DNA from: a virus
DNA length: 21,535 nucleotides
Strand: one strand, 5' to 3'
Virus record (IMG/VR): IMGVR_UViG_3300025133_007214
Span: 1-21,535 of that record
The notes under the pieces are model-generated. The model saw only the letters and a program-made list of their open reading frames with translations, was not told the origin of the DNA and made no database searches. A program made the translations under genes and the position numbers. Positions 1 to 20,478 of the stretch are shown piece by piece; position 1 is the first letter of the stretch, and each line of letters starts with the position of its first letter.

Positions 1-292
1 TTTGCCAGTTCCTTTTTAGATTACCTCGGTCTTTTAATATTTTTTCATTCCCAGAACCACGACCGCCAAGCCTAGCACGCCTCATCTCGATAGTTACTTC
101 AGAAAGCTCTTTCCAATGGTACTTTGGGTTTTTATGATTTCTTCCTTCGCTCTCAAAGTTCTTCTGAATCCACCTGTCAACCGCAACGGCAGACGCAAGT
201 AAAACTTTCCTTCTATCTCTGATAGATCTTAAAAGTTCCCTTGATTTTCTATCATAGTCTGAGCTGTCTCTTTGAATTGTAATTAAAGACAT
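1..292 (-). CDS. Phage virion morphogenesis / tail completion protein (Mu gpG-like), 3' end cut by window
   Basis: The gene starts at the ATG at 292, which shares one base with the upstream TAA (TAATG). It stays open for about 97 codons to the window edge, so the C-terminus is missing. The translation has a long charged N-terminal helix, then a VDRWIQKNF segment, a W-K-E-L stretch and the motif ILKDRGNLKRNW. That motif resembles the 'IL.DTG.L..S' signature of the phage virion morphogenesis family (Mu gpG / P2 gpS), which in those phages completes tails or head-tail joining. Position directly after a connector-like gene in a Mu-type head module agrees. Family assignment comes from motif memory and synteny. 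Confidence 0.72.
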   Translation of the reverse strand, partial: MSLITIQRDSSDYDRKSRELLRSIRDRRKVLLASAVAVDRWIQKNFESEGRNHKNPKYHWKELSEVTIEMRRARLGGRGSGNEKILKDRGNLKRNWQ

Positions 293-741
293 TAATAATC
301 CCTGTCATATTCGTCTTGAATCAAGTCAGGATCTACTCTTTGATCAAAAGAGGGTCTTTGATCAAAGGTAGGTTTATAGTCTTTTGTATTACTCCAAGGG
401 TTGCCCTTTACGGAATCGGAAAACAAACCTGTACCATCATCGAGAATCATTGGACTATTGCCGGTCTTAAAATTTGACAACCTTCTATCTAATTCTCTCC
501 ATAGTTCATCAGAATCACGCAAGTTCCTTGTTCGAACTAAGATCCCATACATCGCAAAATGTATTGATATATCCTTTGCTGTTATATTATTACTAGAAAA
601 AGGAGTCGTGAAATATGAACCCAATGATTCATTGATCCTCATATAGCCATACTCCAACCAATACGACGAAATATCATTCTCAGTCATCCCTTTTACCGAG
701 TAGACTGCCGTAAACTCTGAATAAACTGCGTAAGCTGGCAT
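292..741 (-). CDS. Probable head-tail connector/adaptor (DUF1320-like, Mu gp36 position)
   Basis: This 149-aa acidic protein has a helical N-terminal half (residues 20 to 95) of the type seen in small connector subunits that sit under the portal. The C-terminal third is low in predicted structure and carries a short tandem repeat (TFDQRP then SFDQRV, about residues 129 to 140). The start overlaps the glycosyltransferase stop by one base (TAATG at 741), and its own stop overlaps the gpG-like start in the same way. In Mu-type modules the slot between capsid and gpG holds a DUF1320 protein. Sequence similarity alone is weak, so the assignment rests mainly on size, fold type and gene order. Confidence 0.5.
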   Translation of the reverse strand: MPAYAVYSEFTAVYSVKGMTENDISSYWLEYGYMRINESLGSYFTTPFSSNNITAKDISIHFAMYGILVRTRNLRDSDELWRELDRRLSNFKTGNSPMILDDGTGLFSDSVKGNPWSNTKDYKPTFDQRPSFDQRVDPDLIQDEYDRDY

Positions 742-3671
742 TATAAATACTTCCCTTCAAGATTTTTAGTTTTCTCATCAAAAAGCAAATCTTGAAATTT
801 CTTAACTTGCTCTTTGTTTATAAATCGACCCCTTACAACTTGCTTTTGAATTGACTCAGGGGTTATCTGGTCCCCAATCCCGTTACCTAATCCCATATTC
901 AATGCAAATTCGGCATGCATAGGGGTTTGAGATAATAAATCCGAACTCTCTGACAAGTACTCCATCGCATCAATGCACATCTTTAACTGTTTATTTTCCA
1001 TCAAGAATTGAAAAGCGGTGTGTGCTTGCATTGCTCTTTCCTTCATCGCTTCGGATATCTGATTAGACTGCTCGTATTCAAATCTATTCATGTGAGCAAG
1101 ATCCCTAATCCAAAGAAAATTTCCTAAGAATCTTTTTGGGTATTTCTTCCTGTCTTGAATCATTAGCGGCAAATTACGTTGAAACCGCCCTCTCCTGACT
1201 TCTTCGTTCTCATATCCGAAATGAGAAATGGAAACTTCCGCAGGATTCAAAATAAATACTTCACCCGCTCCCTTGTTGATTTCAGTCTCTGGGTGTTCAT
1301 GTACATGTCCAATAAATTTTATCTTACTTGATTTCCTGAAAAGTCTGCAAGGTAAATCCGTTTTCAGTAGCCCAGCCGGTTCAGCCGAGAAATGATGTTG
1401 ACCGATAGCATAAGAATCAAATTGATTGTTTTTAAGGTACTTAATCAATCTTTCAGGATAATTAAAACATTCATCATGATCAATCCAAAGAATCCAATCG
1501 CAACTAGCTTTCTCAACTGTCCTGTTTCTAGCTTCGTCAAAACCTATCAACTTAGGATTGTCTATCGAAAATACAGTTGCTCCATATTCAAGCCCCACTC
1601 TTTTTGCTCTACCGTCAAGACTTCCATCAATACCAATTATAATCTCATCAGCAATGTCTTTTATTGATTCAAGAGCCTTTCCTAGTGTGTTAGTATCGCT
1701 TTTTGAGATGATACAAACCGATAAACTCTGCTTTGGACTCTGAACAGCTAACTTTCGATCTAAATCTAAAACTCCGATACCTGAATCATCTTTGCTTTTA
1801 TTGTAGGAAAATACATAATTCCCTAGAAAATCGCTCTCTTTACTTTTTGTTGGATTGCAAAAAACAAGTTGAAAATTATCCTTTCGACTAAATAAATCAA
1901 TTAGATCCTGCTCTTCAAAATGATGAACATGCTCATGAAATGGGAACCCTAAAACCCCTTCCGACTTCCATTGCTGCGCTTCCCAAGCTCCATAGGGAGT
2001 TGTGAAAATTATCAATCCACTTTCTTTTGAAAAAGATTCTATTAACTGCACAAACTCGTTAGTATTCCAAACATGCTCAAGAACTTCAGAACACAAAACA
2101 ACATCAAAATCATTCTTCAAGTTAGCTGAATCATAATAGAACTTTAAATTATCAATTCCATTTTTTCTTTTGTAATCGTTCGCAACTTTTATGTTCTCTT
2201 CAGAAATATCATGAGCGTAAAAGTCTAACTTCGGGAAAAGTCGGGCAAGTGCAACCGTTATCTGTCCAACGCAACAACCGTAATCTAAAACTTTACTACC
2301 GTCCGACAACTCAGATAGTTTCTGAATAGCAACTCTATTCCTTGAATTTTCAATATGTCTCTGATCATCTCCAAGATCATGATAAAATTTCTTCTTAGAA
2401 TACTCTTTCGCAGTCTTTTCATAGTGTTCTTTTAGTTGACCATTTTTCACATACTCAAACCTTTCCAGATCCTCTTCAAACCCCTTCAAGTTGTTATCTC
2501 TAATCAACTTACTTGCAATCTTAATATCTGAGTTGTAAATAAAATGTTTTGCCAGTCTTCTCTTACTTGATAAACTCTTCTTGCAAAACTCATTATCAAT
2601 CAATTTATCAAGTTTTTCTACTGCATTATCCCAGGAGAACTTCTCAGCACTTGAGATAGATTTAAAAGATAGTTGCTGATATTTATCAAAATCATTCGAT
2701 AGATATAAAATATTGTGAATAAAAGATTGATTATTATCCTCGCAAAACACTACGCCGCAATCTTCAAGAGTCTCTTCTAATGCCCCTCTTTTCACTGTTA
2801 CAAAAGGAGTTCCTGCTGCTGACTGTTCCATAGCTGTTATGCAACTGGTCTCTTCAAAATCATAACTAGGGTAGACATGAATAAAACTTTTCTTCATCTC
2901 ATCATAAAGATCTTTCTTACTCAAACTCCCCAACCGCTCAACATTTGGTAAATGTTCACATCTTCCCCATAAATACTCATAAAGCGGCCTCATTTGCGGC
3001 ATAGTATGATCGTACCCACAAACCTTCAGCGTTAAGGATGGATCTTCTTTGAGCAGGTTTTCCATGATTCCATTTTCACCCACTAAATTAATCAAACCAC
3101 GCTCCGGCCTAGACGAATAAAACATAACATTAGAGTCAAATTTTTCTCTGACGTTGCAAGTGTTTTTAAACAACTCTAAGTCTACTCCATTCGGTATAAA
3201 ATCAATATAGTCTTCTTTTCCCTGGAAAACTTCAAGAGTTTGTTCTTTATGCCAACCTGAGACAGTTATAATTTTATCAACATTCCACCGTTGATGAAAT
3301 ACCGCTTGTGCCGCTCTTTTTAATGCTAAGTCATGAGTATAGAACAAATTCAATTTAGAATTAAATTGTTTCGTGAAAAAACTAGGTATACGCTGACCGA
3401 TCATCACATCATGAGGAACGCTAAGAGCAAAACTTTCAAAATTATCCCCAAGCTCCTTATCTTTACTTCGCTTCCCGACAGGCATATAAAGAACGCCGTC
3501 ATATTTATCTACTGTCTCTCTATCATTAAATAGAAATACGTCATTGCCTAATTCTGCAAGTCCTCTTGCTAGGTAATATGCACTTGTTTCTGACCCACCT
3601 AAACTTTGATTTTCAATCCCAGTGCCGTCGAATGGCATCCCTGGAACGTATAAAACAATTTTCTTTCTCAT
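741..3671 (-). CDS. Three-domain glycosyltransferase (GT-B) / methyltransferase / glycosyltransferase family 2 protein
   Basis: This 976-aa protein combines three enzyme domains. Residues 1 to about 365 are a GT-B, family 4-like glycosyltransferase: a glycine-rich GGSETS loop at 25 to 30, SGWHKEQ at about 138, IPNGVDLELF at about 159, and the E-x7-E nucleotide-sugar motif at E274/E282 followed by AAGTPFV. Residues about 415 to 610 are a class I SAM-dependent methyltransferase (motif I VLDYGCCVGQ at 461 to 470, acidic DISEEN at 488, DVVLCSEVLEH at 523). Residues about 650 to 850 are a GT-A family 2 glycosyltransferase (SVCIISK start, DHDE metal motif at 731 to 734, FIGHVHEHPE at about 787). 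The remaining roughly 125 residues are unassigned. The start follows a G-rich SD, and the gene sits between capsid and connector genes. It probably builds or caps a glycan, either on the virion or on the host surface; the substrate cannot be read from sequence. Confidence 0.87.
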   Translation of the reverse strand: MRKKIVLYVPGMPFDGTGIENQSLGGSETSAYYLARGLAELGNDVFLFNDRETVDKYDGVLYMPVGKRSKDKELGDNFESFALSVPHDVMIGQRIPSFFTKQFNSKLNLFYTHDLALKRAAQAVFHQRWNVDKIITVSGWHKEQTLEVFQGKEDYIDFIPNGVDLELFKNTCNVREKFDSNVMFYSSRPERGLINLVGENGIMENLLKEDPSLTLKVCGYDHTMPQMRPLYEYLWGRCEHLPNVERLGSLSKKDLYDEMKKSFIHVYPSYDFEETSCITAMEQSAAGTPFVTVKRGALEETLEDCGVVFCEDNNQSFIHNILYLSNDFDKYQQLSFKSISSAEKFSWDNAVEKLDKLIDNEFCKKSLSSKRRLAKHFIYNSDIKIASKLIRDNNLKGFEEDLERFEYVKNGQLKEHYEKTAKEYSKKKFYHDLGDDQRHIENSRNRVAIQKLSELSDGSKVLDYGCCVGQITVALARLFPKLDFYAHDISEENIKVANDYKRKNGIDNLKFYYDSANLKNDFDVVLCSEVLEHVWNTNEFVQLIESFSKESGLIIFTTPYGAWEAQQWKSEGVLGFPFHEHVHHFEEQDLIDLFSRKDNFQLVFCNPTKSKESDFLGNYVFSYNKSKDDSGIGVLDLDRKLAVQSPKQSLSVCIISKSDTNTLGKALESIKDIADEIIIGIDGSLDGRAKRVGLEYGATVFSIDNPKLIGFDEARNRTVEKASCDWILWIDHDECFNYPERLIKYLKNNQFDSYAIGQHHFSAEPAGLLKTDLPCRLFRKSSKIKFIGHVHEHPETEINKGAGEVFILNPAEVSISHFGYENEEVRRGRFQRNLPLMIQDRKKYPKRFLGNFLWIRDLAHMNRFEYEQSNQISEAMKERAMQAHTAFQFLMENKQLKMCIDAMEYLSESSDLLSQTPMHAEFALNMGLGNGIGDQITPESIQKQVVRGRFINKEQVKKFQDLLFDEKTKNLEGKYL

Positions 3672-3692: not shown

Positions 3693-3965
3693 TTATTTAT
3701 TTCCTTTTAATTTCTGCTCTAGAAAGTTTATTACAAGATCTTCCTTCTTCATTGTATTTGCTCTTTTATCGCCCGAATACTTCTTGATTAATTGTTCTCT
3801 AGTCATGCTTAAAACGTCCAGAGCAATCTTAATTCCATCTTCTTTTGTCTGTGCTGCTTTCAACTCTTTAAAACGTCTTGTGCCTCTTTGAATCTTGCTT
3901 ATTTCCTTGTTTGTTTCTGCCTTGTTTGGATCTTCGCTTCTTGCTTTTAACATAATTCCTTTCAT
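3693..3965 (-). CDS. Small basic protein with HeH/Rho-N-like C-terminus (Mu gp35 position)
   Basis: The reading frame is open from a TTG at 3995, but that codon has no SD. I prefer the ATG at 3965 (90 aa), which has an upstream AGG; an ATG at 3953 with AAAGGA close by is an alternative. The protein is lysine-rich and helical. Its last 35 residues (LSMTREQLIKKY, then MKKEDLVINFL) resemble a helix-extension-helix, Rho-N/SAP-like unit. Mu gp35 and its Haemophilus relative HI1506 occupy this position after the capsid gene and carry such a domain. I infer the equivalence from position and the short motif only. Confidence 0.6.
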   Translation of the reverse strand: MKGIMLKARSEDPNKAETNKEISKIQRGTRRFKELKAAQTKEDGIKIALDVLSMTREQLIKKYSGDKRANTMKKEDLVINFLEQKLKGNK

Positions 3966-4015
3966 TAAAATCAGTTGCCTAGTATATCCAGACAACTGAA
4001 ATTTATTAACTAATC

Positions 4016-4984
4016 TTAAGTTGAACTAGTTACATTAGTAATCAACGCACCGAGATTAGAAGCAATTACAGCTTCGTCCTGGTAGTATCCAATTTCAATG
4101 TCATCACTTTTAGTCAATGAATTGTAAGGATGTCGCTCAACTGTCATATTTGGAATTCCACGCTTATTCCATCTGAAAGAATATCCAAAACTTGGACGGT
4201 CAACTGATGGACGTTCAGGAGCATAATAAACAAGAACAGAGTCACCCCAAATTGGAGTTAATGACTGTGCAATTCCTTCTTCTGCTGTGTTGTAGTAGCC
4301 ATTCCCGACTAATACTTTATCCATCTGAAGGAGTGCTTCAGCATCACGCACGGAAGCCGATTGACCACCACCAGCTACACCGGTCTGTCGAATTTTATCA
4401 ATTACAACATCATTTCTTGAGAAGTTCCTAAAACTTTCAAGACCGAAAACCGCTCTATTAGGTTTATAGCCTGTCAATCCTTCCACATTATCACACATAG
4501 TAAGAATATCAGACCAAGGATCCGAATTATTATAGTCAGTCCATGCACTTGCAACCGCTGTCGAAGTACCAACGTTGCTAGTATTGAAAGCAAGAGTTGA
4601 CGCCCTAACATCCCAATTCAATAGCAATTTATCCATGATAAACATACTACGGTTTTGCTCTGTATCTGCGATAAAAGCAGGATCTGCGTTTCCACGATCT
4701 TCAATAGTTGTACTCATACGCAATGCGTAGTTATTACAAATATAAGAAGAACTTCCAACCTGCACATCCAATTGATTGGCGGTATATCCAGGAGAACGCC
4801 TATCATTTTCACTTCTGTAAAGGTCCGCACTTTCATAAGTCTTAATCAGTCCTGATTGTCTATCAACATTCACGATTGGAAAAATATCTTGTGCAATAAA
4901 ACCGGAAGGTCGGTAATTGATTGCAACATTGCTTAAGTGTCTGTCAATATAGACAGAACGCCCTTGTAGGTAGCCTGTAGCCAT
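4016..4984 (-). CDS. Major capsid protein
   Basis: This 322-aa protein would form the icosahedral shell. It follows the decoration protein gene, has a strong SD (GAGG eight bases before ATG), and has the composition of HK97-fold capsid proteins found in Mu-like and related phages. Features visible are an N-terminal NYRPSGFIAQDIFPIVNVD segment, a central SDPWSDILTMCDNV helix followed by GYKPNRAVFG, and a C-terminal region with GDSVLVYYAPERP and FRWNKRGIPNMTVERHPYN. The stretch 'a.wsdi..d......tgy.pn..v.g...f..l' is typical of capsid proteins from this group. No delta domain is visible, consistent with the scaffold being supplied by the neighbouring protease/scaffold gene. Confidence 0.85.
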   Translation of the reverse strand: MATGYLQGRSVYIDRHLSNVAINYRPSGFIAQDIFPIVNVDRQSGLIKTYESADLYRSENDRRSPGYTANQLDVQVGSSSYICNNYALRMSTTIEDRGNADPAFIADTEQNRSMFIMDKLLLNWDVRASTLAFNTSNVGTSTAVASAWTDYNNSDPWSDILTMCDNVEGLTGYKPNRAVFGLESFRNFSRNDVVIDKIRQTGVAGGGQSASVRDAEALLQMDKVLVGNGYYNTAEEGIAQSLTPIWGDSVLVYYAPERPSVDRPSFGYSFRWNKRGIPNMTVERHPYNSLTKSDDIEIGYYQDEAVIASNLGALITNVTSST

Positions 4985-5001: not shown

Positions 5002-5400
5002 TTAATTACTTGAAGTCATGAAATAAGGTGTGGCAAAGTTGAATAAACCTGCTCCAACTGCACCACTAGCAACTGCTGTTTCTAATGCTCTACCAACAAC
5101 GTAAGTTCCTGAAGTAGCAGCGACCAGATAACCAGATCCGGCTACGGTAAGTCTTGCACCTGCTCCAACTGCTCCACCTGCCGTAAATTTAGACTGCCCA
5201 ACCGTATCACAAGTGATATGATTCCCTGACTGTCCACCGTAACAAATAATTCCTACCGCTTCTAATCCATTGGCAGCAAATTTTCTATCATCAGCAGCAA
5301 TTGCCTTATAAACTGCTCCTGTTCCCGCTGTAGCATTGGAAAGATCCTCAGCCGCAAGCAAAGCGTATTGAAACGCCTGATTTTCATTTTTAATAGCCAT
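5002..5400 (-). CDS. Capsid decoration / head stabilisation protein (DUF2190-like)
   Basis: This 132-aa protein is rich in Gly, Ala and Val, with repeated short beta strands (GAVYKAIAADD, GARLTVAGSGYLVAATSGTYVVGRAL). That is the pattern of gpD/DUF2190-type proteins that bind the outer capsid after expansion. The start has a clear AGGAG eight bases upstream. It sits between protease/scaffold and major capsid genes, the normal place for decoration proteins in Mu-type and lambda-type modules. It has no signal peptide or membrane segment. The family call is from composition, size and position; I see no catalytic motif. Confidence 0.72.
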   Translation of the reverse strand: MAIKNENQAFQYALLAAEDLSNATAGTGAVYKAIAADDRKFAANGLEAVGIICYGGQSGNHITCDTVGQSKFTAGGAVGAGARLTVAGSGYLVAATSGTYVVGRALETAVASGAVGAGLFNFATPYFMTSSN

Positions 5401-5415
5401 TGTTTTTTCTCCTAA

Positions 5416-5901
5416 TTATTTTACAGAAAGAGTAAACTCTTTATAGTTTTCCAACAGTTTTTCATCAGCGCTAAAAACAATACTTGACGCTTCAATATAG
5501 TCTTTTCCTGTGCTTTTCATCACATTAACAATTTCAGCATGTAAAGCTTCATCCCCAGACATCTCTACTTTCTTCTCATCAGTAGCCTGCTCTTTAGAGT
5601 TTAGGTTTACTGAATAAAATTCACTTAATGAATGAGTAAACTCAGCACTAAAAGAAATACCTTTTCCTGAGATAAATTCTTGTTTTTGAGAATCAATTGA
5701 TAACTCGATCTTAGGCAACGCTGCAGGCATTAACTTACCGTCCTGGACGTCTTTCTTGTATAAATTCATGATTTCTTCTTTCTTAGAAGAGAATTGAATT
5801 TCCTTTGCTTGAACTTCAACAAGTTCTTTTTCTTTTTTCAACTGCTCTAATTCCGCTTTTACAGCTGCAAATTCTAGAGTCAAATCTTTTGTTTCTTCCA
5901 T
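5416..5901 (-). CDS. Candidate nested scaffold protein from an internal start in the protease gene
   Basis: An in-frame ATG at 5901 (residue M175 of the protease) is preceded by AAAGGTAAAA, giving AGG five bases before the start. The 161-aa product would lack the protease domain and contain only the charged coiled-coil region and acidic tail. Mu gpZ inside gpI and lambda Nu3 inside gpC are precedents for such nested scaffolds. The SD and the position at the domain boundary are seen directly; expression is inferred. Confidence 0.5.
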   Translation of the reverse strand: MEETKDLTLEFAAVKAELEQLKKEKELVEVQAKEIQFSSKKEEIMNLYKKDVQDGKLMPAALPKIELSIDSQKQEFISGKGISFSAEFTHSLSEFYSVNLNSKEQATDEKKVEMSGDEALHAEIVNVMKSTGKDYIEASSIVFSADEKLLENYKEFTLSVK

Positions 5902-6423
5902 TTTTACCTTTTCAAAATGAATTTTCGGTTCACTAAAATGCAACGCTATTTCGGGATTACCGATATTTGCAGCGTCTTTTATTACACTCTTAATATTTTC
6001 TCTCTTCTCTGATAGAAAAGCTTGTAGATCTTCCAATGTCTTCACGGCTGGGGTATCTGCCCCTAAAAATGCTATACCAGTAAGGAACCAACCAAAATTC
6101 TCAGTATGCTTTAATTCAACCGATACCTGCTTGTATCTTTCTTGCTCAATAGCACTAATTAAGATCTCAGGGATATTCTTAAAATCAGCAACAATCTTTT
6201 CGCCTTCTTGTCTTATTGCTGTTATCCAACCTAGCGCTGGATCTCCATCAGTCTGGCCTTTTAATATCTGATTATTACTATGGCCTAGTTTGACGGGCGG
6301 TTTTAATCTAGATTCAAGAATCAATGCAGTCGTGTTATTGACAATCTCTTTAAGATCTTCTTCTACGAATTTGAATCCATTCCATGTGCCAACTGCAAAA
6401 ACTTCTACTGATTGCATATTCAT
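5416..6423 (-). CDS. Prohead protease with C-terminal scaffold (Mu gpI-like)
   Basis: This 335-aa protein has an N-terminal half (1 to about 150) that matches the Mu-like prophage I protease pattern: an early VGTWNG, KPPVKLGHSNNQ at about 41 to 52, GWITAIRQEGEKIVADF, and the KQVSVEL segment at about 98 with a following FLTGIAFLGADTPAV stretch. In such proteases a His and a Ser in these strands are catalytic; here H48 and S101 are the natural candidates. The C-terminal half is charged and coiled-coil-like (VKAELEQLKKEKELVEVQ), typical of scaffold. Residue M175 has its own SD and can start a separate scaffold product. The ATG overlaps the stop of a 24-codon ORF (ATGA). Confidence 0.82.
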   Translation of the reverse strand: MNMQSVEVFAVGTWNGFKFVEEDLKEIVNNTTALILESRLKPPVKLGHSNNQILKGQTDGDPALGWITAIRQEGEKIVADFKNIPEILISAIEQERYKQVSVELKHTENFGWFLTGIAFLGADTPAVKTLEDLQAFLSEKRENIKSVIKDAANIGNPEIALHFSEPKIHFEKVKMEETKDLTLEFAAVKAELEQLKKEKELVEVQAKEIQFSSKKEEIMNLYKKDVQDGKLMPAALPKIELSIDSQKQEFISGKGISFSAEFTHSLSEFYSVNLNSKEQATDEKKVEMSGDEALHAEIVNVMKSTGKDYIEASSIVFSADEKLLENYKEFTLSVK

Positions 6424-6494
6424 TGTATTTCTTCCCAGGTTAAATTTGCACCGACATCAGTGTTTTGCTTGAATCTATCTCTTGAGATTGACAT
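6420..6494 (-). CDS. 24-aa ORF bridging portal and protease genes
   Basis: This ORF fills the gap between portal and protease exactly. Its ATG shares one base with the portal stop (TAATG at 6494) and its TGA overlaps the protease start (ATGA at 6423). The product is short and polar (starts MSISRDRFKQ, ends TWEEIQ). GGAG lies about ten bases before the ATG, inside the portal gene. It may be a small protein or merely a device that carries ribosomes from portal to protease. I do not recognise the peptide. Confidence 0.45.
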   Translation of the reverse strand: MSISRDRFKQNTDVGANLTWEEIQ

Positions 6495-8824
6495 TATTTC
6501 ACAACTCCAAAACCACCACTCGGTTGAATCAAATTACCTTTTGAGTCCTCTGCCGGTTTATCAAGTTTATAAGTACCTCTATCTAGTACCGTTACAGCAA
6601 TACACCTTGATCTACAACGGAAGTGATTTGGCGGTGTTATTTGCCCCCACACTGGATCATCTATTTTGAAAATTCTTCCGTGATAACTATTGCAAAACTT
6701 TGTTGTTCTATTATCCATGATTGCAGAATATTGTAATGCTTCAACAAAATCACTTAACTCTGGACTAGTAAATACGCTAAGTTGCGCCTGATTAAATACG
6801 TTTGATAAAGTTGTCCTTGCGATAGCTTCAACTTTAGATCCTGATACTTTACCTTCAACTTGAATCACTCCTGAGTCAAGATATGGAGTCATCACAGATC
6901 CTAGTTCTTCTGTGAAAGTATCAATATCCCATTCATTTATTATAGACTTTTCTAAAATGACTCTAAACCGGGCAAGCATCTCATTAGTCACATCCCCAGT
7001 AAGATAGAATCCTTGTGCTCTGATAAACTTTTCAAAATCATTCATTGAGATATTATCAACGAAATTAAGAACGCTAAAATCACCTGCTCCTGTAAACTTT
7101 ACAGCAACTTTTCTCGTGAATGCCAGTTTACTTATTAATGATTCGCTTAAAGATCTGTCCGGCATACTTTTTAACGCTTTTTCCATTTCATCTTTAGCAA
7201 CTGACCTTCCCAATCTATACCCTTTATTCAACTCCTTAATAAATACGCTTCTTAATTCCTTCTTCCTTTCAGTTGTTACTATATCATCATCAGGTATTGT
7301 GAGGTATTTTTCAGGTTTCTCTTTCACATCAGGAGCAGATAAGATCTCTCTCCCAGCATTAATCAAGTCTTGAAATATTTCATTCGTAACACTGGTCACT
7401 TCATCAAAATAATCTTGCTCTAATCCATCCAATTGAGTTTCCAATTCAGCAAAATTAACTCTTTTCTCGTAAGCAGGTGTAGGATCTTCATCATTAAAGT
7501 TCAGGTTTTGATCTTCTTTAGTAGTTTTATCTGACATGTCTTTAGAAATATTTGAATCCTTATCATTACTAATTTCCTCTTTAGCAACTTGATCCTCCTT
7601 CCCTTCTCCATTAGTTTCAAGTTCTCCGTCCTCTTCTTCTCTCGGATCATACTGCAGAAGCTCCCTTGTCCTGAGTTCATCTTGATATGTGTTTACTACT
7701 GTTCCTTCTTTAACTGCATTAACCCACGCCAACGCAAGTTCTCTTTTCTCTTGATCAGTGTATTTTTCAAATCTAAACTTTGGAAAATCTTTTACTCCAA
7801 AATTCCAATAAGCAAGCTCCTTGAACAACTGCTCGTTAAGAACTTCTTCTAAATGTTTTGCCTGATTCTCGATTACATTGTAAAAAATATCCTTCTGTAC
7901 TTGCGCTTGACTAAAAGAACCTGTCCCTTGTTGCTCTGTGTACCCTGCTAAACCAGGAACAAGCAACCCTCTTGATATTTGTCTATCCCTATACGCAATT
8001 GCTTTTTCGAATGCATCAGTAGAAATAGGATTCTTAATATCTAGTTGAAAACCGGAAGGCATTCTAATTGAAGTCTGTTTCGTGATATTTGAAAGAACAG
8101 AATCAAAATCGGCTTTCTGTGCTGGCGACAACGCAGGGGCGTCTTTATCAGCATGAACTGTAATAAATCCACCTGCCAGTCTTTCAGTCCAGATATTCCA
8201 AAAATTTTGAATTTGATCCTTTTCCCAGTATGATCTATAAACAGATCTTAAATCACTTTCACCGTAAACTTCATCAAGTTCAGGTTGGTTGATATAGATC
8301 AAAAATTTGCTAGGATCTAACTTCTTTCTAGTGTTTTTCTGCTCTTGAATGATTGATAACAGATTACCATAATCATCAACCTCAAAAGTGAACGAATTAT
8401 AAGGTTTTAGCTTTAAAGAACTTAGTAACCATCTCTCAGATCCGGCAATATCTGCAATATCATAATTTTTTTCACAAACCGAGAATCCATATGCTTTAGC
8501 CATTAAGATCTTCCTTAATGCTTGCGTGAAAGACTCTTTTAAGAATGACTCAATATTATAGTTGAAAAGTTTAATAATCTCTTCTTCAAGTTCCTCATCA
8601 TCAAGTAAAGACTTCTCAAACCTGTAGTCTCTAGACGCTATCAAATCAACAACAACATTAAAAGCGGCCTTGACTTGCGGATCTCTGAGCATATTATCAT
8701 AAATTTGATACCCCTTCTTCTGCCGTAAGGTATCTTCTGAGTATATTTCGAACTTCTTTCCGAATTGACTAAAGAAGTCAGTAAAAGCCGTTGCCGTTTC
8801 TGTGAGTTGTGGTTTTTCTTGCAT
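6494..8824 (-). CDS. Portal protein (Mu gp29/DUF935-like) fused to MuF head morphogenesis domain
   Basis: This 776-aa protein joins two proteins that are separate in Mu. Residues 1 to about 410 are the portal: DTLRQKKGYQIYDNMLRDPQ near the start, KAYGFSVCEK at about 109, and RDRQISRGLLVPGLAG at about 279. The portal ring is the DNA channel and motor docking site. Residues about 400 to 450 are an acidic, poorly ordered linker. Residues about 455 to 776 end in a MuF (SPP1 gp7-like) domain: ARTTLSNVFNQAQ at about 669, then DNRTTKFC and PPNHFRCRSRC with conserved Cys and His at 704 to 742. MuF proteins are minor capsid components needed for head assembly. The ATG shares one base with the terminase stop (TAATG at 8824). 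Confidence 0.9.
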   Translation of the reverse strand: MQEKPQLTETATAFTDFFSQFGKKFEIYSEDTLRQKKGYQIYDNMLRDPQVKAAFNVVVDLIASRDYRFEKSLLDDEELEEEIIKLFNYNIESFLKESFTQALRKILMAKAYGFSVCEKNYDIADIAGSERWLLSSLKLKPYNSFTFEVDDYGNLLSIIQEQKNTRKKLDPSKFLIYINQPELDEVYGESDLRSVYRSYWEKDQIQNFWNIWTERLAGGFITVHADKDAPALSPAQKADFDSVLSNITKQTSIRMPSGFQLDIKNPISTDAFEKAIAYRDRQISRGLLVPGLAGYTEQQGTGSFSQAQVQKDIFYNVIENQAKHLEEVLNEQLFKELAYWNFGVKDFPKFRFEKYTDQEKRELALAWVNAVKEGTVVNTYQDELRTRELLQYDPREEEDGELETNGEGKEDQVAKEEISNDKDSNISKDMSDKTTKEDQNLNFNDEDPTPAYEKRVNFAELETQLDGLEQDYFDEVTSVTNEIFQDLINAGREILSAPDVKEKPEKYLTIPDDDIVTTERKKELRSVFIKELNKGYRLGRSVAKDEMEKALKSMPDRSLSESLISKLAFTRKVAVKFTGAGDFSVLNFVDNISMNDFEKFIRAQGFYLTGDVTNEMLARFRVILEKSIINEWDIDTFTEELGSVMTPYLDSGVIQVEGKVSGSKVEAIARTTLSNVFNQAQLSVFTSPELSDFVEALQYSAIMDNRTTKFCNSYHGRIFKIDDPVWGQITPPNHFRCRSRCIAVTVLDRGTYKLDKPAEDSKGNLIQPSGGFGVVK

Positions 8825-10194
8825 TAAATTGCACTCTGTGAGAATAACGAGTTTGTTACACTAAGTTCAAAATCTCTTTGTCTCATTCCTAAAATTGCTT
8901 GCGAACAAGCATCAACTTGATCATCATGCTTAGAATTAGGAAAGTTTGTTAATTCTGTTAAAAAGTCTTTTGTAAAAGATTTGCTTTCAGGGATATGGAT
9001 ATTGCCTGACTCAAAATAAGCAGAAACCGCACTTAAACGCCCTTCTTTGCTGTCATTATTGCGAAAGGGTATCAATCCAGGGACTTTTCTTTGCAAATCT
9101 GCTATGATTGCCGCTCCATTCGCCTTCTCTTCTACAAATTTCCTGTAAGTCTCAGGCCATTTTCTAGTGATCATCTGAATTGCTGCTTTAACTTCAGGGA
9201 AACTCGCTCTTTCTCTATACTGATCAAGAAGATAATAATCTGCTCCTAATCTTCCCCAGACTTGACCAACATTGAAAGAACCATCAGTCGTTTTCTTGAA
9301 ACTAAGATCCCAAGATTGCACAATTTCATCAAAAGCATCAGGAGTCTTACTGTAAAGATTCACCCAGTTCTTCTTAATGATTCCGCCTTCTAATGAACTA
9401 GGTTGTTGCTGATATAGTCCTGCCCAAACATACTCCCCAACTGCCCTCTTTGTTCTTTCAAGATCTTCTTTATCGAATCTATCAGCACATAAAGCCTCAC
9501 CTGCCGACCTGTCTAGCATATCTAAAGACTGATCATCACACAAAGCAGGTAATAAAACATGCTTCCAGTCATCTTCATGCTCGTTTAACAAATAACCAGA
9601 AAGATCATTTTCATGCCAGCGGGTCATCAATAAAATGATAGTCGTTCCTGGCTGCCTTCTCGTATACAAAGTAGAGTTAAACCAGTCTATATTTCTTTGC
9701 TGATATGTTTCGCTTTTCGCTTCTTCAAAGTTCTTTGTCGGGTCATCTATTACAATAAGATCCCCTGACTTTCCAGTAATTGCCCCACCTGCTCCAGCGG
9801 TAAACATTCCACCGCCTTCTTCAGTAATGAAATAAGATCTTGACCTAGTATCCTTGTTGATTACTGTTTCTAGTTTCTCGTTATAAAGAAACTCGTCCCT
9901 GACTTGCCTTCCCCAATGAGCTGCAAAATTAGCCTCATAAGTTGTAAGTATAACTCTTTTCTGAGGGAAGTTTTCAAGATACCAAATAGGCAGCCATTTC
10001 GATACAAATAAAGACTTTCCATGCTGCGGCGGTAGGTTGATTACTACTCTTCCGTTGCCTTCAAATATCGCTTCAGACACTATCTCAGAAATAAGTCTGA
10101 TATGGTCATAGATCTTGTATCTCCCTTCGCTGCAGTACTCAGCACAGAGGCACGGTAAAGACTTCCTGATAAAATGATCACTCAGATCTATCAT
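8824..10194 (-). CDS. Terminase large subunit
   Basis: This 456-aa motor protein packages DNA. The ATPase half shows a Walker A-type loop PPQHGKS (55 to 61), adenine-contact region LTTYEANFAAHWG (84 to 96), Walker B DLIVIDDP (145 to 152) and coupling motif LLMTRWHENDLSG (188 to 200). The RNase H-like nuclease half shows SWD with D296, the middle acidic EEK at 355 to 357 and the final HDDQ at 423 to 426. All three metal-binding positions are therefore present and the length is normal. The start lies 17 bases inside the small-subunit gene, which suggests coupled translation; the SD is weak. The type of DNA end produced cannot be decided from this sequence. Confidence 0.96.
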   Translation of the reverse strand: MIDLSDHFIRKSLPCLCAEYCSEGRYKIYDHIRLISEIVSEAIFEGNGRVVINLPPQHGKSLFVSKWLPIWYLENFPQKRVILTTYEANFAAHWGRQVRDEFLYNEKLETVINKDTRSRSYFITEEGGGMFTAGAGGAITGKSGDLIVIDDPTKNFEEAKSETYQQRNIDWFNSTLYTRRQPGTTIILLMTRWHENDLSGYLLNEHEDDWKHVLLPALCDDQSLDMLDRSAGEALCADRFDKEDLERTKRAVGEYVWAGLYQQQPSSLEGGIIKKNWVNLYSKTPDAFDEIVQSWDLSFKKTTDGSFNVGQVWGRLGADYYLLDQYRERASFPEVKAAIQMITRKWPETYRKFVEEKANGAAIIADLQRKVPGLIPFRNNDSKEGRLSAVSAYFESGNIHIPESKSFTKDFLTELTNFPNSKHDDQVDACSQAILGMRQRDFELSVTNSLFSQSAI

Positions 10195-10983: not shown

Positions 10984-11700
10984 TTACATCATTATTAAAC
11001 TATTCCCCGAGCTTTTTTGAAGCCAAGTCACGCCTTTACCTGTCACTAAGGTTTGACAGTATTGCTTCTCTTTACCATGCTTCCCATAAAGACTCCCTTG
11101 AACTACAAAATACCCTCTATCTATATAGGTTTGATAAGGTGTATTGTCTCTCATCAATACTTTATTCTCTCTCAATTTCTTGAACAGTCTCTTTTCTCCA
11201 GTATCTAAGATCTTGGCAACTTCTCTAATTGAGATAGCGTTTTCAGTCTTAACAACCTTATCATGGAATTCCGCTTTAGGGATTAAAATTTTATTTTCCT
11301 GTTCCAGTTTCAATCTATCGCTTTCTATTTTTGCACATTCTTGAATCCATTCTAATTTTGTCTCAGGAATCTTTTCTAAAGAATAAGAACCATTACTTCT
11401 AAGCGATGGCAATACTTCTTCAAATACCCAATCTTGAAATTTTACAGCACTAGGAAGCTTAGATCTAAAGATTAATCTGTAAACATCAGGTTCAAAAATG
11501 ATATTATATGGAGGTGCTCCAGCCCGCTGTTCATGGTGTTTCCATTTTAAGACCCCCGTACAATGGTCGATCACAGCCTTGCTCGGTGCTTCATATCCGA
11601 GTGCTTTTGCTACATCAACAGCAAGAAACCCAACCTTTTCCTTCCCTTTAATAATTCTTAACTTACCAAAGACTTTACTTTCAAAAATATCTATATTCAT
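10984..11700 (-). CDS. Phage antirepressor with BRO-N and KilAC domains
   Basis: The ATG at 11700 gives 238 aa; the longer open frame starts with a TTG inside the upstream hairpin and I reject it. Residues about 1 to 105 are a BRO-N domain (KVGFLAVDVAKALGYEAPSKA, then FEPDVYRLIFRSKLPSAVKFQDWVFEEVLPSLR). Residues about 145 to 238 are a KilAC/ANT domain (IPKAEFHDKVVKTENAISI, REVAKIL, GEKRLFKKLR, GYFVVQGS, TLVTGKGVTWLQ). Proteins with this pairing bind phage repressors or DNA and help switch temperate phages towards lytic growth. The gene is preceded by a strongly structured leader ending in a T-run and followed by a terminator, so it may be a separately controlled single-gene unit. The SD is poor (GGT). 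Confidence 0.9.
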   Translation of the reverse strand: MNIDIFESKVFGKLRIIKGKEKVGFLAVDVAKALGYEAPSKAVIDHCTGVLKWKHHEQRAGAPPYNIIFEPDVYRLIFRSKLPSAVKFQDWVFEEVLPSLRSNGSYSLEKIPETKLEWIQECAKIESDRLKLEQENKILIPKAEFHDKVVKTENAISIREVAKILDTGEKRLFKKLRENKVLMRDNTPYQTYIDRGYFVVQGSLYGKHGKEKQYCQTLVTGKGVTWLQKSSGNSLIMM

Positions 11701-11710
11701 TTCATTTACC

Positions 11711-11798
11711 AAAAAAAAAGAGAGTCCTCTAAGAAACGCCAAACCGCTTTCGAACTAACAGCACCACCTGTACAATTCTATCTTAAAAAACTCTCTTT
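11711..11798 (-). ncRNA. Candidate structured RNA / terminator-attenuator before the antirepressor
   Basis: On the minus strand, bases 11798 to 11781 pair with 11734 to 11717 in one continuous 18-pair stem. The outer nine pairs are perfect (AAAGAGAGT with ACTCTCTTT), then four T-to-G/A pairs including three wobbles, then five perfect pairs. The 46-base interior holds a further small hairpin (ACAG, loop GTGGTG, CTGT). The 3' arm runs straight into T9. This has the form of a small RNA ending in its own intrinsic terminator, or an attenuator, and it stops about ten bases before the antirepressor ATG. No known RNA family is recognised. Confidence 0.5.
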
Positions 11799-13953: not shown

Positions 13954-14272
13954 TTTTTTTTCTAAATAAAGCGTAGTCTTTTTCTGACTGACTGATCAAT
14001 AAAGACAGTATTAAGTTGTTTTTATCCGCACAACTTGAAATATATGCTATCATCGTTTTTTTATTCCTGCTTATGCTAGGTTTTATGCTTGCTGAATAAA
14101 TCTTCCTTAAATTGCTGTAGATATATTGAATAATCTTATCATCAGCATCAAGTAAGATTATCTTTGCATCTGAGTTGCTGAGGTAATTAAAATTAGGACT
14201 TGTGGATACACTTAAGATAGGATCCTCTTTAACTTTTTTGATTTTGTATTTCAATCCTTTTTCATTAGACAC
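13946..14272 (-). CDS. Hypothetical protein, GTG start, after dCTP deaminase
   Basis: The open frame extends far into the dCTP deaminase gene, but the GTG at 14272 has AGGGGA six bases upstream and overlaps the deaminase stop by eight bases; I take it as the start (108 aa). The protein is lysine-rich with alternating strand and helix (AKIILLDADDKIIQYIYSN, then TMIAYISSCADKNNLILSLLIS). No motif is recognised. Its position between the deaminase and two zinc-ribbon genes gives no firm functional clue. Confidence 0.65.
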   Translation of the reverse strand: MSNEKGLKYKIKKVKEDPILSVSTSPNFNYLSNSDAKIILLDADDKIIQYIYSNLRKIYSASIKPSISRNKKTMIAYISSCADKNNLILSLLISQSEKDYALFRKKNE

Positions 14273-15878
14273 GATAGATCCCCTTAGAAATTTGAGTTGT
14301 TTTTTGATTGTTATACCGCCCACGCTTTGAATATGACTGCTTTTCTGGCACTTTTTCACCCTCCCAAAATACAATTTGCCCAATTGGCATTCCTGCATAG
14401 ATTCTAGCAGGGAACGGTAAATAGTTTACAAATTCCATTGTAAGTTTTGAATTATTCCAACCCGGATCGCAATTGTGAACAAAAACTCCTGAACTCAATC
14501 CAAAATTATGATACTTATCAACGGTCATATCATAAACTGGAATCGCTATTTTAAACTTAACCTTCTTAACGCTGACAACATAGTGATTGTTATACCCAAG
14601 CTCTTTTACTAAGTTAGAAAAACTCCCAAAGTATTCTTCAATCTTGGTTTTTGTTGGGAAGTTTTGCTTTTTCGTCGAAAGGTAATTCTCTAAATCAATC
14701 TTCATATTAGATTCAATCAACTTAATGAGAACCTTCTTTACGCAGCCAGCAACCGTTTTCTTTTTATGCTCTTCTTTGTTCGCCTTATTCCATTCATGCA
14801 TGCTTAAATGTGACTTATTTTCTTTTGCCAACCTAGAAGCATTCAATACACTCTTCTCCCTGTTTTCGATCCACCTTTTTTTGTTTGTACTATTCGCAAT
14901 AGTTACCGCTTGTTTAGATTTACATTCTCTATATTCTCTATCACTCCATTTTTCTTTCATGATTTTTGACATATTTTCAGAAGATTTCAACCTACCAATT
15001 TCACTTTTAGAGTAAATATCTCTATGAAGTTTTGCGTGCTCAATTGCGTCAATCACTTCTAAGTTATCCACCCTGTTATTAAGTTTGTTGTGGTTTTTAT
15101 GATGAATACACATCCCTTCAGGAGTTTTCCCGACTACTATTTGATGAGTAAATTCCCATTTCCCTATTAATGTTTTCCAGTTAGATTTCAATCTCGTTGA
15201 AGGAGAATAAACTTGCTCATATCCAGTATTAGAAATCTTCTTTTTCAATGGCATTAATGTAGTACCTGGGATTAATTTCTCTGCTTCTAGGTATTCACCG
15301 TTCCTAAGCATAAACCTATGATCGCCAGTCGACCTTATTACTTTTCCATTATCAAGTTCAACCTCAACTATCTCATCAACATACTTTGAAATATGCACAT
15401 TATAAGCACTTCCTGACTTTACATCTCCATTCCCGTCAACTGAATATACTTGAAACTCTTTTCCTACTAAATTTCTGATCTCTTCTTGACTGCCATCAAG
15501 TAAGTCTATCTTTGTATCCCCAGTCAAGCACCAACCAGCAAGTAAATGGTTCTGCCCCAACCTGGCTTGACTTGATTTTAGTTTATACTCGGCTGCAATA
15601 TTGTCCGGTAAGTTGAATTTCTCTACTGTAGACCCTAGCCAAAATTGCCAAGAATCTAATAGAAACCCACCGCCCTCAATTCGATAAGACTCAAAGAATT
15701 GATCAATATTACTTTTATCATTCACAAGATCAATTTCTTTAATATTTGACCTCTTCGGCAAGTAAATCTTTTCACCTAAATGCACATCTATAGACGCCGC
15801 ATTAATTGCACTCTGTTTGTAGTTCTCAACTACACCCTCGGAGCACAGATCTACAAGTTTTCTGTATGTCAATAACAT
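14265..15878 (-). CDS. dcd: dCTP deaminase interrupted by an HNH intein
   Basis: The joined exteins (residues 1 to 116 and 470 to 537, 184 aa) make a normal-length dCTP deaminase, which converts dCTP to dUTP for thymidylate synthesis. Seen motifs are SIDVHLG (29 to 35), KSSQARLG (101 to 108, with the catalytic Ser and Arg region), the DPGW signature after the junction, and TMEFVN with the catalytic Glu E482. The intein inserts between W116 and C470, immediately before DPGW, so the Ser/Arg side and the Glu side of the active site are on different exteins and the enzyme should be inactive until splicing. The gene is adjacent to the DUF7448 stop (TAA directly followed by ATG). Confidence 0.92.
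   Translation of the reverse strand: MLLTYRKLVDLCSEGVVENYKQSAINAASIDVHLGEKIYLPKRSNIKEIDLVNDKSNIDQFFESYRIEGGGFLLDSWQFWLGSTVEKFNLPDNIAAEYKLKSSQARLGQNHLLAGWCLTGDTKIDLLDGSQEEIRNLVGKEFQVYSVDGNGDVKSGSAYNVHISKYVDEIVEVELDNGKVIRSTGDHRFMLRNGEYLEAEKLIPGTTLMPLKKKISNTGYEQVYSPSTRLKSNWKTLIGKWEFTHQIVVGKTPEGMCIHHKNHNKLNNRVDNLEVIDAIEHAKLHRDIYSKSEIGRLKSSENMSKIMKEKWSDREYRECKSKQAVTIANSTNKKRWIENREKSVLNASRLAKENKSHLSMHEWNKANKEEHKKKTVAGCVKKVLIKLIESNMKIDLENYLSTKKQNFPTKTKIEEYFGSFSNLVKELGYNNHYVVSVKKVKFKIAIPVYDMTVDKYHNFGLSSGVFVHNCDPGWNNSKLTMEFVNYLPFPARIYAGMPIGQIVFWEGEKVPEKQSYSKRGRYNNQKTTQISKGIYRV
14472..15530 (-). mobile_element. Intein with HNH homing endonuclease inside dCTP deaminase
   Basis: The 353-aa intein begins with C117 (CLTGDTKIDLLDG) and ends with H468-N469, followed by the +1 nucleophile C470. 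Block B is STGDHRF with T184 and H187. Block F is PVYDMTVDKYHNFGL near residue 448, and block G is FVHN. All residues needed for splicing are present. The inserted endonuclease core is an HNH type (HHKNHNKLNNRVDNLEVIDAIEHAKLH, about 259 to 285), followed by a basic, helical region probably for target recognition. An intact HNH motif suggests recent or continuing homing activity. Confidence 0.93.
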
Positions 15879-18643: not shown

Positions 18644-19423
18644 TCATCCAACAAGTATTCCATTAAAACTTGCACTCACGTCGTTATTGCTACCGGCTGA
18701 CCACAAACTGATTTTGACTAAAGCATTTGAGCATATTTTAATTGGAGGATCTACAACCTCAAAAAAAGAAATATCCCCACCAGTTTTCACAGTTCTTTTG
18801 AACAGAAAACAACCAACAAGATTACCTTCGTTGTCGCAATTGGATCTTAACCTTGCCGACATAACGTTCCCACCATTCACCCCAACAGTCCATCCCGTAA
18901 TAAACAATTCTTTATTTGAGGGTATTTTTCGGTTAATGACTAAAGATTTATTACCACTTGCTTGAATCAAATTGTATATTGTAGACGCTGCGCCTTTTTT
19001 ATAAATCGTAATATCACCAGCCGCAACAGTCCCAGATCCAACAGTCAATGCATACATATCGTTCACAAAGGTAATATCAGTTGCAACTGTATCTACTCCA
19101 GTATCCCCGTTCATTGTCAAAACTTCGGTTTGTTCTAGCCCGTCACCGTCCAAATAATCAATTTGAACTGTCTGAACCCCCGTCCCTGCTGCTGCATCTG
19201 CTGCTTCAGTTGAAACGATTGTTAATTGCTCCCCACCGGCTGCAGGAACTGGCATAATATCTTGAGCCGCTATTTCTGTAACATCTTCGCCCGTAGCCGC
19301 TGTCCCCGTATTCGTCCTTTCACCCATTGAACTGAAAGCCGAATATCCGTCAATTGAGCCTCTTGAAATATTTATCCCTGAATCTCTCAAGGGGAAACCA
19401 AATTTGTCTTTAGGTATAGCCAT
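18644..19423 (-). CDS. Virion-type structural protein, probably fibre or head decoration
   Basis: This 259-aa protein is rich in Gly, Ala, Thr and Val with many short beta strands and few charges. The part from about 55 to 145 (VPAAGGEQLTIVSTEAAD, YLDGDGLEQTEVLTMNGD, GSGTVAAGDITIYKKG) looks like repeated beta sandwiches of the kind found in phage fibre and head-fibre proteins. The last 100 residues form a second beta domain. It is placed far from the head module, among regulatory and replication genes, with an upstream hairpin repeat and its own terminator, so it is probably transcribed separately. A role as receptor-binding or capsid-surface protein is inferred from composition only. Confidence 0.6.
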   Translation of the reverse strand: MAIPKDKFGFPLRDSGINISRGSIDGYSAFSSMGERTNTGTAATGEDVTEIAAQDIMPVPAAGGEQLTIVSTEAADAAAGTGVQTVQIDYLDGDGLEQTEVLTMNGDTGVDTVATDITFVNDMYALTVGSGTVAAGDITIYKKGAASTIYNLIQASGNKSLVINRKIPSNKELFITGWTVGVNGGNVMSARLRSNCDNEGNLVGCFLFKRTVKTGGDISFFEVVDPPIKICSNALVKISLWSAGSNNDVSASFNGILVG

Positions 19424-19714: not shown

Positions 19715-19750
19715 ATTACCCCATAGAACTAGGTAAAAATCAATCAAATT
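19715..19750 (-). repeat. 36-bp direct repeat with hairpin, copy B (after the Rha-like gene)
   Basis: This is the second copy of the repeat. It overlaps the last codons of the Rha-like gene and ends about 22 bases before the 58-aa gene. On the minus strand it forms the same TTACC/GGTAA stem, with an inner TA-with-TA extension closing a GTTC loop. Relative to copy A, one inner pair changes from G-C to A-T. Confidence 0.75.
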
Positions 19751-20478
19751 ACCTCTATTTCTAGTTTTTGTTTGTAAGTTATAGCCCCAATTTGAGACTG
19801 ACCGATCAATTCAGCAAAGGATAAAACCCTGTCCCTTGCTAATTCATAAATATCTTTATAAAAAAAACCTTTTGCCATGCCTTCTTTTAATGCCCTACTT
19901 ACTATTTTATCCGCTGCTTGAATAGTGTTTAATTGTTCGTAGTTTAAAACCTCTCTCACGTTTTTATATTTATCAGTAATAACAAATAACGCCTTATTTT
20001 CCATTTTACTTATATTTGTATAATACATCTTAGGGCTACCAGATCCTTGAATAGATGCATACTCAATAAAGTCTTTAATTGTATCAGTTTCTTCTCTCCT
20101 GGTGATCTTCCCTTCCCCCCTTTTCAGTAACCAGTCTTGATTCTGCTTTTGCGCTGCAAGATTAGAAAGGTATTTCCTCATCATGCTAAATTGTTTTGTT
20201 ATCTCTTTTTTAAAAAAGACTATTTCTTTTGTATTCTTACATAGAGTTATTAAAAAAATAAACTGATCCTCATTCAGTAAATAAGATTCTTCTGGCCTTC
20301 CTGCTTTCTTATTTAATTTCTGCCTCTCCAGGGGCAGGAATCCAAAGTCCAAAAAATCTAATTCATTTTTAGAAACAACTCTCTTTAAATATCTGTGATC
20401 TTTATATCCTAGCTTTTTAAAAATATCGAACGTCTTGACTACTGGTTCCTTGTCTTTATATAAAAAAACTTCATTCAT
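19744..20478 (-). CDS. Rha-like phage regulatory protein
   Basis: This 244-aa protein has an N-terminal Rha (pRha) type domain, residues about 10 to 105: VVKTFDIFKKLGYKDHRYLKRV, then GRPEESYLLNEDQFIFLITL and EIVFFKKEITKQFSMMRKYL. This arrangement is found in phage Rha and related antirepressor-type proteins. The C-terminal part (about 125 to 244) is a helical partner domain of unknown role. It has an excellent SD (AAGGTGG) that is also one arm of an inverted repeat. It probably controls the lytic/lysogenic choice or host-factor dependence together with the BRO-N/KilAC protein. Confidence 0.78.
   Translation of the reverse strand: MNEVFLYKDKEPVVKTFDIFKKLGYKDHRYLKRVVSKNELDFLDFGFLPLERQKLNKKAGRPEESYLLNEDQFIFLITLCKNTKEIVFFKKEITKQFSMMRKYLSNLAAQKQNQDWLLKRGEGKITRREETDTIKDFIEYASIQGSGSPKMYYTNISKMENKALFVITDKYKNVREVLNYEQLNTIQAADKIVSRALKEGMAKGFFYKDIYELARDRVLSFAELIGQSQIGAITYKQKLEIEVI

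Follow-up and report, generated by a model that had tools for sequence, protein, structure and literature searches.

A glycosyltransferase–methyltransferase fusion in the head module of a tailed-phage clade, a probable virion-glycosylation enzyme

What is known of glycosylation in phage virions comes mostly from mycobacteriophages. The glycosyltransferases gp110 of phage Che8 and gp38 of phage Corndog are reported to modify capsid and tail-tube proteins (PMC12363180, PMC12619734), and the glycans are stated to lie at the C-termini of the capsid and tail-tube subunits (PMC12619734). Protein A064R of virus PBCV-1 has a glycosyltransferase–glycosyltransferase–methyltransferase composition; this enzyme assembles the terminal part of the capsid N-glycan and methylates it (PMC9614988). 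The gene described here is located in a 21,535-nucleotide stretch of viral DNA (the entire analysed part, positions 1 to 21,535, of the IMG/VR record IMGVR_UViG_3300025133_007214), called the window below. It occupies positions 741..3671 on the minus strand, where all window features given with coordinates below also lie, and encodes a three-domain enzyme composed of a GT-B glycosyltransferase (family GT4), an S-adenosylmethionine (SAM) methyltransferase and a GT-A glycosyltransferase (family GT2), followed by a helical C-terminal tail. This protein, referred to as the fusion, is best explained as a self-contained cytoplasmic virion-glycosylation enzyme of one tailed-phage clade, with a probability of about 0.65. 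A preliminary description of the same DNA had stated that no such system was known in a Mu-type head module. Both virion glycosylation and a viral fusion of two glycosyltransferases with a methyltransferase (A064R) are known; the literature searched contained no account of the particular fusion considered here.

The open reading frame (ORF) begins with ATG, has no internal stops and codes for 976 amino acids. Its boundaries are exactly those of the preliminary description, which did not mention the strand. The three domains proposed there were all found by Pfam above the cut-offs: Glyco_transf_4 (residues 25–166), Glycos_transf_1 (205–334), Methyltransf_31/23 (443–602) and Glycos_transf_2 (651–767). 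The GT-B domain, delimited by Pfam and a fold search, comprises residues 1–365 (2577..3671) and is GT4-like, of the retaining type by fold; its E-x7-E motif, E274..E282 (2826..2852), was located in an alignment of 77 sequences. The class-I SAM methyltransferase domain (residues 436–625; 1797..2366) includes motif I, VLDYGCCVG (461–469), and was recognised by Pfam and alignment. The same evidence, together with a fold search, defines the GT2 domain (residues 645–820; 1212..1739), which contains DHDE (731–734) and HEHPE (791–795). The motifs named previously are thus all present, the acidic GT2 motif being D731-H-D733-E734. The remaining part, residues 821–976 (744..1211), is a conserved and mainly helical tail, judging by the secondary structure of the AlphaFold model. 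The model of the whole protein, made with an input alignment of 77 sequences, has a mean predicted local distance difference test (pLDDT) score of 94.3 and a predicted template modelling (pTM) score of 0.92. Pfam, PHROGs and NCBIfam contain no curated family that spans the entire protein, and the viral fold library, where multi-domain glycosyltransferase/methyltransferase phage proteins are present (TM about 0.3), contains none convincing for the full architecture.

The active sites are well preserved in the 77 full-length homologous sequences over which conservation was counted. R188, E190 and R191 of the GT-B domain are invariant (77/77), position 274 is E in 66 sequences and D in 11, and E282 is kept in 72. 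The methyltransferase retains D463 in 73 sequences, G465 in 75, G469 in 76, D488 in 74 (E in 3), E529 in 74 and E532 in 75, while D682, D731, D733, E734, H760, D772, H791, E792 and H793 of the GT2 domain are found in all 77. Loss of catalytic residues, named in the preliminary description as an outcome that would speak against it, is therefore not seen, and the three domains are apparently active enzymes, as far as conserved catalytic residues can tell. The fusion genes of the window and of a near-identical contig (L002) differ by 35 synonymous and 2 non-synonymous substitutions, a ratio of non-synonymous to synonymous rates (dN/dS) of 0.013; more distant pairs give 0.08–0.17. The gene encodes a protein under strong purifying selection, and a chance reading frame is excluded by the dN/dS of 0.013 and by the conservation of the active sites in 77 full-length homologues.

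Structure prediction followed by a fold search, the check suggested in the preliminary description, yielded a confident model, a GT4 fold and matches of the protein/peptide-modifying type for the GT2 part. The GT-B domain aligns with 6kih (Z = 34.0) and MshA (3c4q, Z = 33.8), the matches at about 34 being to sucrose-phosphate synthase and MshA; its GT-B fold, GT4-type donor site and E-x7-E motif place it in GT4, and such a standard fold says little about the acceptor. Motif I and the acidic residue of strand 2 assign the methyltransferase to class I. This domain matches many methyltransferase families, and its fusion to glycosyltransferases points to a sugar as the methyl acceptor. Since the GT-B domain dominates a fold search with the whole model, the GT2 part was folded separately (pLDDT 95.5); the closest structures were SunS (Z = 22.2) and ThuS (Z = 21.3), ahead of a further group at 16.1, and the SunS and ThuS alignments extend into the helical tail, up to residue 328 of the 337-residue GT2 model piece. 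A profile comparison with PDB sequences gave GmaR (2.5e-26), SunS (2.2e-23) and ThuS (5e-20), followed by the next match at 7e-7. The GT2 domain is consequently nearer, by both sequence and fold, to GmaR, SunS and ThuS than to the GT2 enzymes of polysaccharide synthesis. SunS and ThuS attach sugar directly to protein or peptide side chains. GmaR glycosylates flagellin and has a TPR (helical repeat) domain behind its glycosyltransferase (PMC9638930). The HE motif common to GmaR and SunS in profile alignments is kept in 77/77 fusion sequences. By homology, the substrate of the GT2 domain would be a protein side chain.

A profile search of viral contigs produced 159 relatives of the fusion; the best 80 were kept, with 33–45% identity and mostly full length, and synteny was examined in 80 non-redundant loci containing most of the fusion. 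A related major capsid protein (MCP) gene is situated upstream on the same strand in 73 of the 80 loci, at a median distance of 363 bp and at most 3320 bp. In six of the seven remaining loci the available sequence ends within about 500 bases upstream, and the seventh, L094, is a genuine exception. Connector genes were found in 59 loci, in all cases downstream and on the same strand. A search by MCP alone, run to avoid circularity, detected the fusion in 55/55 loci with a visible downstream gene, with none lacking it among those having at least 1500 bases downstream; nine loci were too short to judge, and some contigs overlap the first set. By the same test, the fusion occurs in none of 60 loci of the related RDJL-type MCP group, and the regions read in cultured relatives show no annotated glycosyltransferase in the interval from MCP to connector. 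Among 50,697 phage records only partial, single-domain matches were obtained, and no member of the fusion clade is present among the cultured-phage records searched; a plasmid search also returned partial matches only, those from Enterococcus covering the GT2 part and the tail. The fusion is a core gene of the whole capsid clade and not a singular insertion. The preliminary description had proposed looking for the same fusion beside capsid genes elsewhere, and had regarded homologues confined to host surface-polysaccharide loci as contrary evidence. The search did find the fusion beside capsid genes in other phages, almost all homologues adjoin phage capsid genes and not host polysaccharide genes, and the linkage of a glycosyltransferase with structural genes agrees with that of virion-glycosylation systems. 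In one relative (L010, 1746–4618) the fusion is broken into two frames, which may reflect either a true frameshift or an error in sequencing.

A scan of 84,980 GTDB genomes with two short peptide patterns, which may miss distant cellular homologues, revealed six clear matches to the fusion, of which five belong to the phylum SAR324 and the sixth to Zixibacteria; other matches were partial. Four of the six have an MCP gene in the same locus, which rules against a host polysaccharide locus. SAR324 is an uncultured bacterial lineage; a direct search found fusion relatives in 5/52 of its genomes, and in a FastTree phylogeny the SAR324 sequences form the sister group (support 1.0) of the group to which the window belongs. 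It is plausible that SAR324 bacteria or their neighbours are the hosts of the window phage. A 982-kb contig of one SAR324 genome (G016) carries a head module with an intact fusion at about 384–402 kb, representing an integrated prophage (L192, G016 C4). It is flanked by a bioD-like gene and transketolase and nuo genes, assigned by eye. The portal frame of L192 is short (443 aa) and no terminase was recognised, so this element may be a remnant.

The presence of relatives in an integrated prophage would also suit a function in the host envelope, where the enzyme would place a methylated disaccharide on a surface glycan and so mask receptors, exclude superinfecting phages or bring about lysogenic conversion. 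Polysaccharide pathways commonly use GT4 domains, the GT-B part broadly matches such enzymes, and the copy in L094 lies away from capsid genes. However, the linkage to the capsid gene is strict, the window protein has no strong membrane segment, no flippase or lipid-carrier partner was seen among the genes of the capsid–connector slot, and the GT2 domain resembles enzymes that glycosylate proteins. Modification of the envelope is therefore considered improbable. The preliminary description had allowed for capsid or tail proteins as well as the host envelope as targets; the virion-protein option is supported and the envelope option is weaker given the GT2 type.

The MCP of the window (4016..4984; phrog_1005 major head protein, E = 4e-60) ends in Ser-Ser-Thr (4019..4027), a candidate glycosylation site within a clade-specific tail. 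The MCPs accompanying the fusion end in -V(N/T/G)SS(T/S/Q); alignment column 472 is Ser or Cys in 67/73 of them, and two consecutive Ser/Thr residues ([ST][ST]) occupy the last positions in 56/74, several exceptions having Cys there. None of 79 control MCPs ends in this way, most stopping at, for example, -GIVA or -TVVA. In the 51 plain-tail MCPs the two serines use all six Ser codons (27 AGY and 24 TCN for the first, 19 AGY and 32 TCN for the second), and because the serines are written in both AGY and TCN codons, it is the amino acid that is under selection. The likeliest single acceptor, at somewhat less than even odds, is the C-terminal Ser-Ser tail of the MCP. Alternatively, the enzyme might act on the cement/head-fibre protein or on LamG-like surface proteins encoded between enzyme and connector. 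The cement-type gene is close by and sometimes duplicated, and LamG-like and other virion-like proteins occupy the downstream slot in many relatives, but the cement C-terminus showed no conserved Ser signature, unlike the MCP, and the slot of the window itself is without a LamG-like protein. This variant of virion glycosylation is rather unlikely.

The slot between capsid and connector contains other genes in the relatives, with each family judged from one representative: additional GT-B genes (14) and genes for radical SAM proteins (10), methyltransferases (4) and a GDP-mannose 4,6-dehydratase, as well as two families, one unannotated with 5 members and one with 27 that includes LamG/concanavalin-like proteins. 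By these assignments, it looks like a slot for glycan and surface-protein genes. In relative L006 (9320–12183), a second glycosyltransferase–methyltransferase protein and a GDP-mannose 4,6-dehydratase precede the fusion, which suggests a GDP-deoxysugar donor in that phage. Small proteins encoded beside the fusion in L005 (11995–12588) and L060 (4173–4832) appear sulfotransferase-like by eye, with no Pfam match.

In the proposed mechanism, the GT2 domain would use a nucleotide-sugar to attach the first sugar to a Ser (or Cys) residue in a virion protein; a second sugar would then come from the GT4 domain, and the methyltransferase would cap the glycan. All steps, in this presumed order, would be cytoplasmic and would precede or accompany assembly. 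Speculative benefits are protection against proteases or grazers, a change in adsorption, or particle stability. Several observations weigh against virion glycosylation or its capsid version. The identity of the GT2 domain to SunS and GmaR is about 20%; the enzyme and the capsid tail are markers of one and the same clade, so that their co-occurrence is largely a single evolutionary contrast; and L018, L016 and others keep the enzyme though their capsid tail is altered. L094, a SAR324 contig, has its fusion relative away from any MCP, and one member (L025) carries a degenerate or damaged methyltransferase. Next to the L094 copy (5105–8377), which has low-complexity insertions in its reading frame, are a repressor-like gene and genes of ordinary bacterial type.

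A more far-reaching proposal is a clade-wide obligatory capsid-glycosylation module, in which a methyl-capped glycan would be placed on a dedicated C-terminal Ser-Ser tag in hundreds of copies per particle, enzyme and tag evolving as a pair and some hosts being SAR324 bacteria. It is possible but, on balance, doubtful. If true, sugar-coated capsids would be the rule across a large group of unstudied phages (more than 100 metagenomic contigs). The predicted acceptor site is testable; the enzyme could also serve as a compact tool for putting a capped glycan on a short C-terminal tag, and its gene as a genomic marker for SAR324 phages.

The head module of the window reads, in minus-strand order, terminase, portal–MuF, protease, cement-type protein, MCP, small ORF, fusion, connector and the next morphogenesis gene. 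The large terminase subunit (8824..10194) was identified by library profile matches, the Mu-type portal fused to a MuF-like head morphogenesis protein (6494..8824) by Portal_Mu (9.7e-49) and Phage_Mu_F (9.7e-15), and the head maturation protease (5416..6423) by phrog_976. The cement/head-fibre-type protein (5002..5400), in the DUF2190 position, matches phrog_673 and has same-position neighbours in relatives. A small ORF (3693..3953) without a family match lies between MCP and fusion; its ATG is at 3953, and it is listed from TTG 3995. The connector (292..741) is directly 3′ of the fusion in the DUF1320 position, where phage YPCBV-1 also has its DUF1320 protein, and the next morphogenesis or neck gene (2..292) is truncated by the window end. 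The placement of the fusion between capsid and connector genes was thus correctly described before. The one-base overlap reported as shared with the structural neighbours holds for the downstream border (TAATG at 741; the same overlap type occurs at 292/741 and 8824), whereas the upstream border is a 21-base gap.

A hairpin resembling an intrinsic terminator (12 pairs and a T run) is situated 3′ of the capsid gene (3971..3999). Such hairpins were found within 120 bases 3′ of the capsid gene in 31/79 relatives versus 21/395 mononucleotide shuffles. The late expression with virion proteins suggested earlier fits the position in a late head module, but the terminator-like hairpin precedes the fusion. 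Since it stands between MCP and fusion, expression equal to that of the capsid is unlikely; enzyme output is probably below that of the shell protein, and the hairpin would limit the enzyme to catalytic, not structural, amounts.

The label "Mu-type" applies to the head genes (Portal_Mu, Phage_Mu_F) but not to the rest of the window, which encodes a DnaB_C helicase, a single-stranded DNA-binding protein (SSB, recognised from its translation) and a dCTP deaminase. A search of 15 long related records for the Mu-type transposase (DDE; rve/DDE_2 models) gave a signal in one of them, below the cut-off; the window itself is a fragment. A Mu phage with a cargo gene was rejected as a description of the whole phage in view of the DnaB_C/SSB replication genes and the near-absence of transposase in these records. 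Thymidylate-synthase-type genes are the usual family behind hydroxymethyl bases. A gene of this type was detected in only 1/15 long related records, which may be incomplete, and this bears on another explanation, glycosylation of phage DNA (base hypermodification) against restriction. Phage glycosyltransferases acting on DNA are well known (literature cited in PMC12619734), but the head-module position and the protein-type GT2 domain also argue against this explanation, which is very improbable. Further features of the window include a dCTP deaminase/dUTPase-type protein interrupted by an intein that carries an HNH endonuclease domain (14265–15878), and a 259-aa virion-like protein (18644–19423; phrog_8198) about 10 kb off the head module, the relatives of which in L004 and L006 are encoded between portal and protease. 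BRO/KilAC antirepressor and Rha-type regulators (10984–11742 and 19744–20478) hint at a temperate relative.

Among known systems, the RDJL-type siphoviruses and phage YPCBV-1 have related MCP, cement-type, protease-type and connector genes in the same order; they differ in having no annotated glycosyltransferase at the MCP–connector slot in the regions read and in MCPs that end without Ser-Ser. Listeria flagellin O-GlcNAc transferase GmaR and the glycocin glycosyltransferases SunS and ThuS share with the fusion a GT2 domain with the HE motif followed by helices, but lack a fused GT-B or methyltransferase and act on flagellin or bacteriocin peptides. The mycobacteriophage systems, compared by their published descriptions, resemble it in using phage-encoded glycosyltransferases and C-terminal sites on virion proteins; they belong to actinobacterial phages, and the cited sources describe glycosyltransferases and mention no methyltransferase fusion, whereas the fusion unites the activities in one polypeptide and in another phage group. 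A064R is likewise a single viral protein with two glycosyltransferases and a SAM methyltransferase, and it acts on MCP glycans. It comes, however, from a eukaryotic giant virus (chlorovirus), has 638 aa, uses other glycosyltransferase families in the order GT-A, unusual glycosyltransferase, methyltransferase, and extends an N-glycan, whereas the phage enzyme would start on Ser. The fusion, with its order GT4–methyltransferase–GT2, does not belong to the A064R family as defined by the same domains in the same order; the similarity is functional and architectural and does not imply homology. If capsid glycosylation is its true role, the fusion would give bacterial viruses an equivalent of the A064R/capsid system of chloroviruses.

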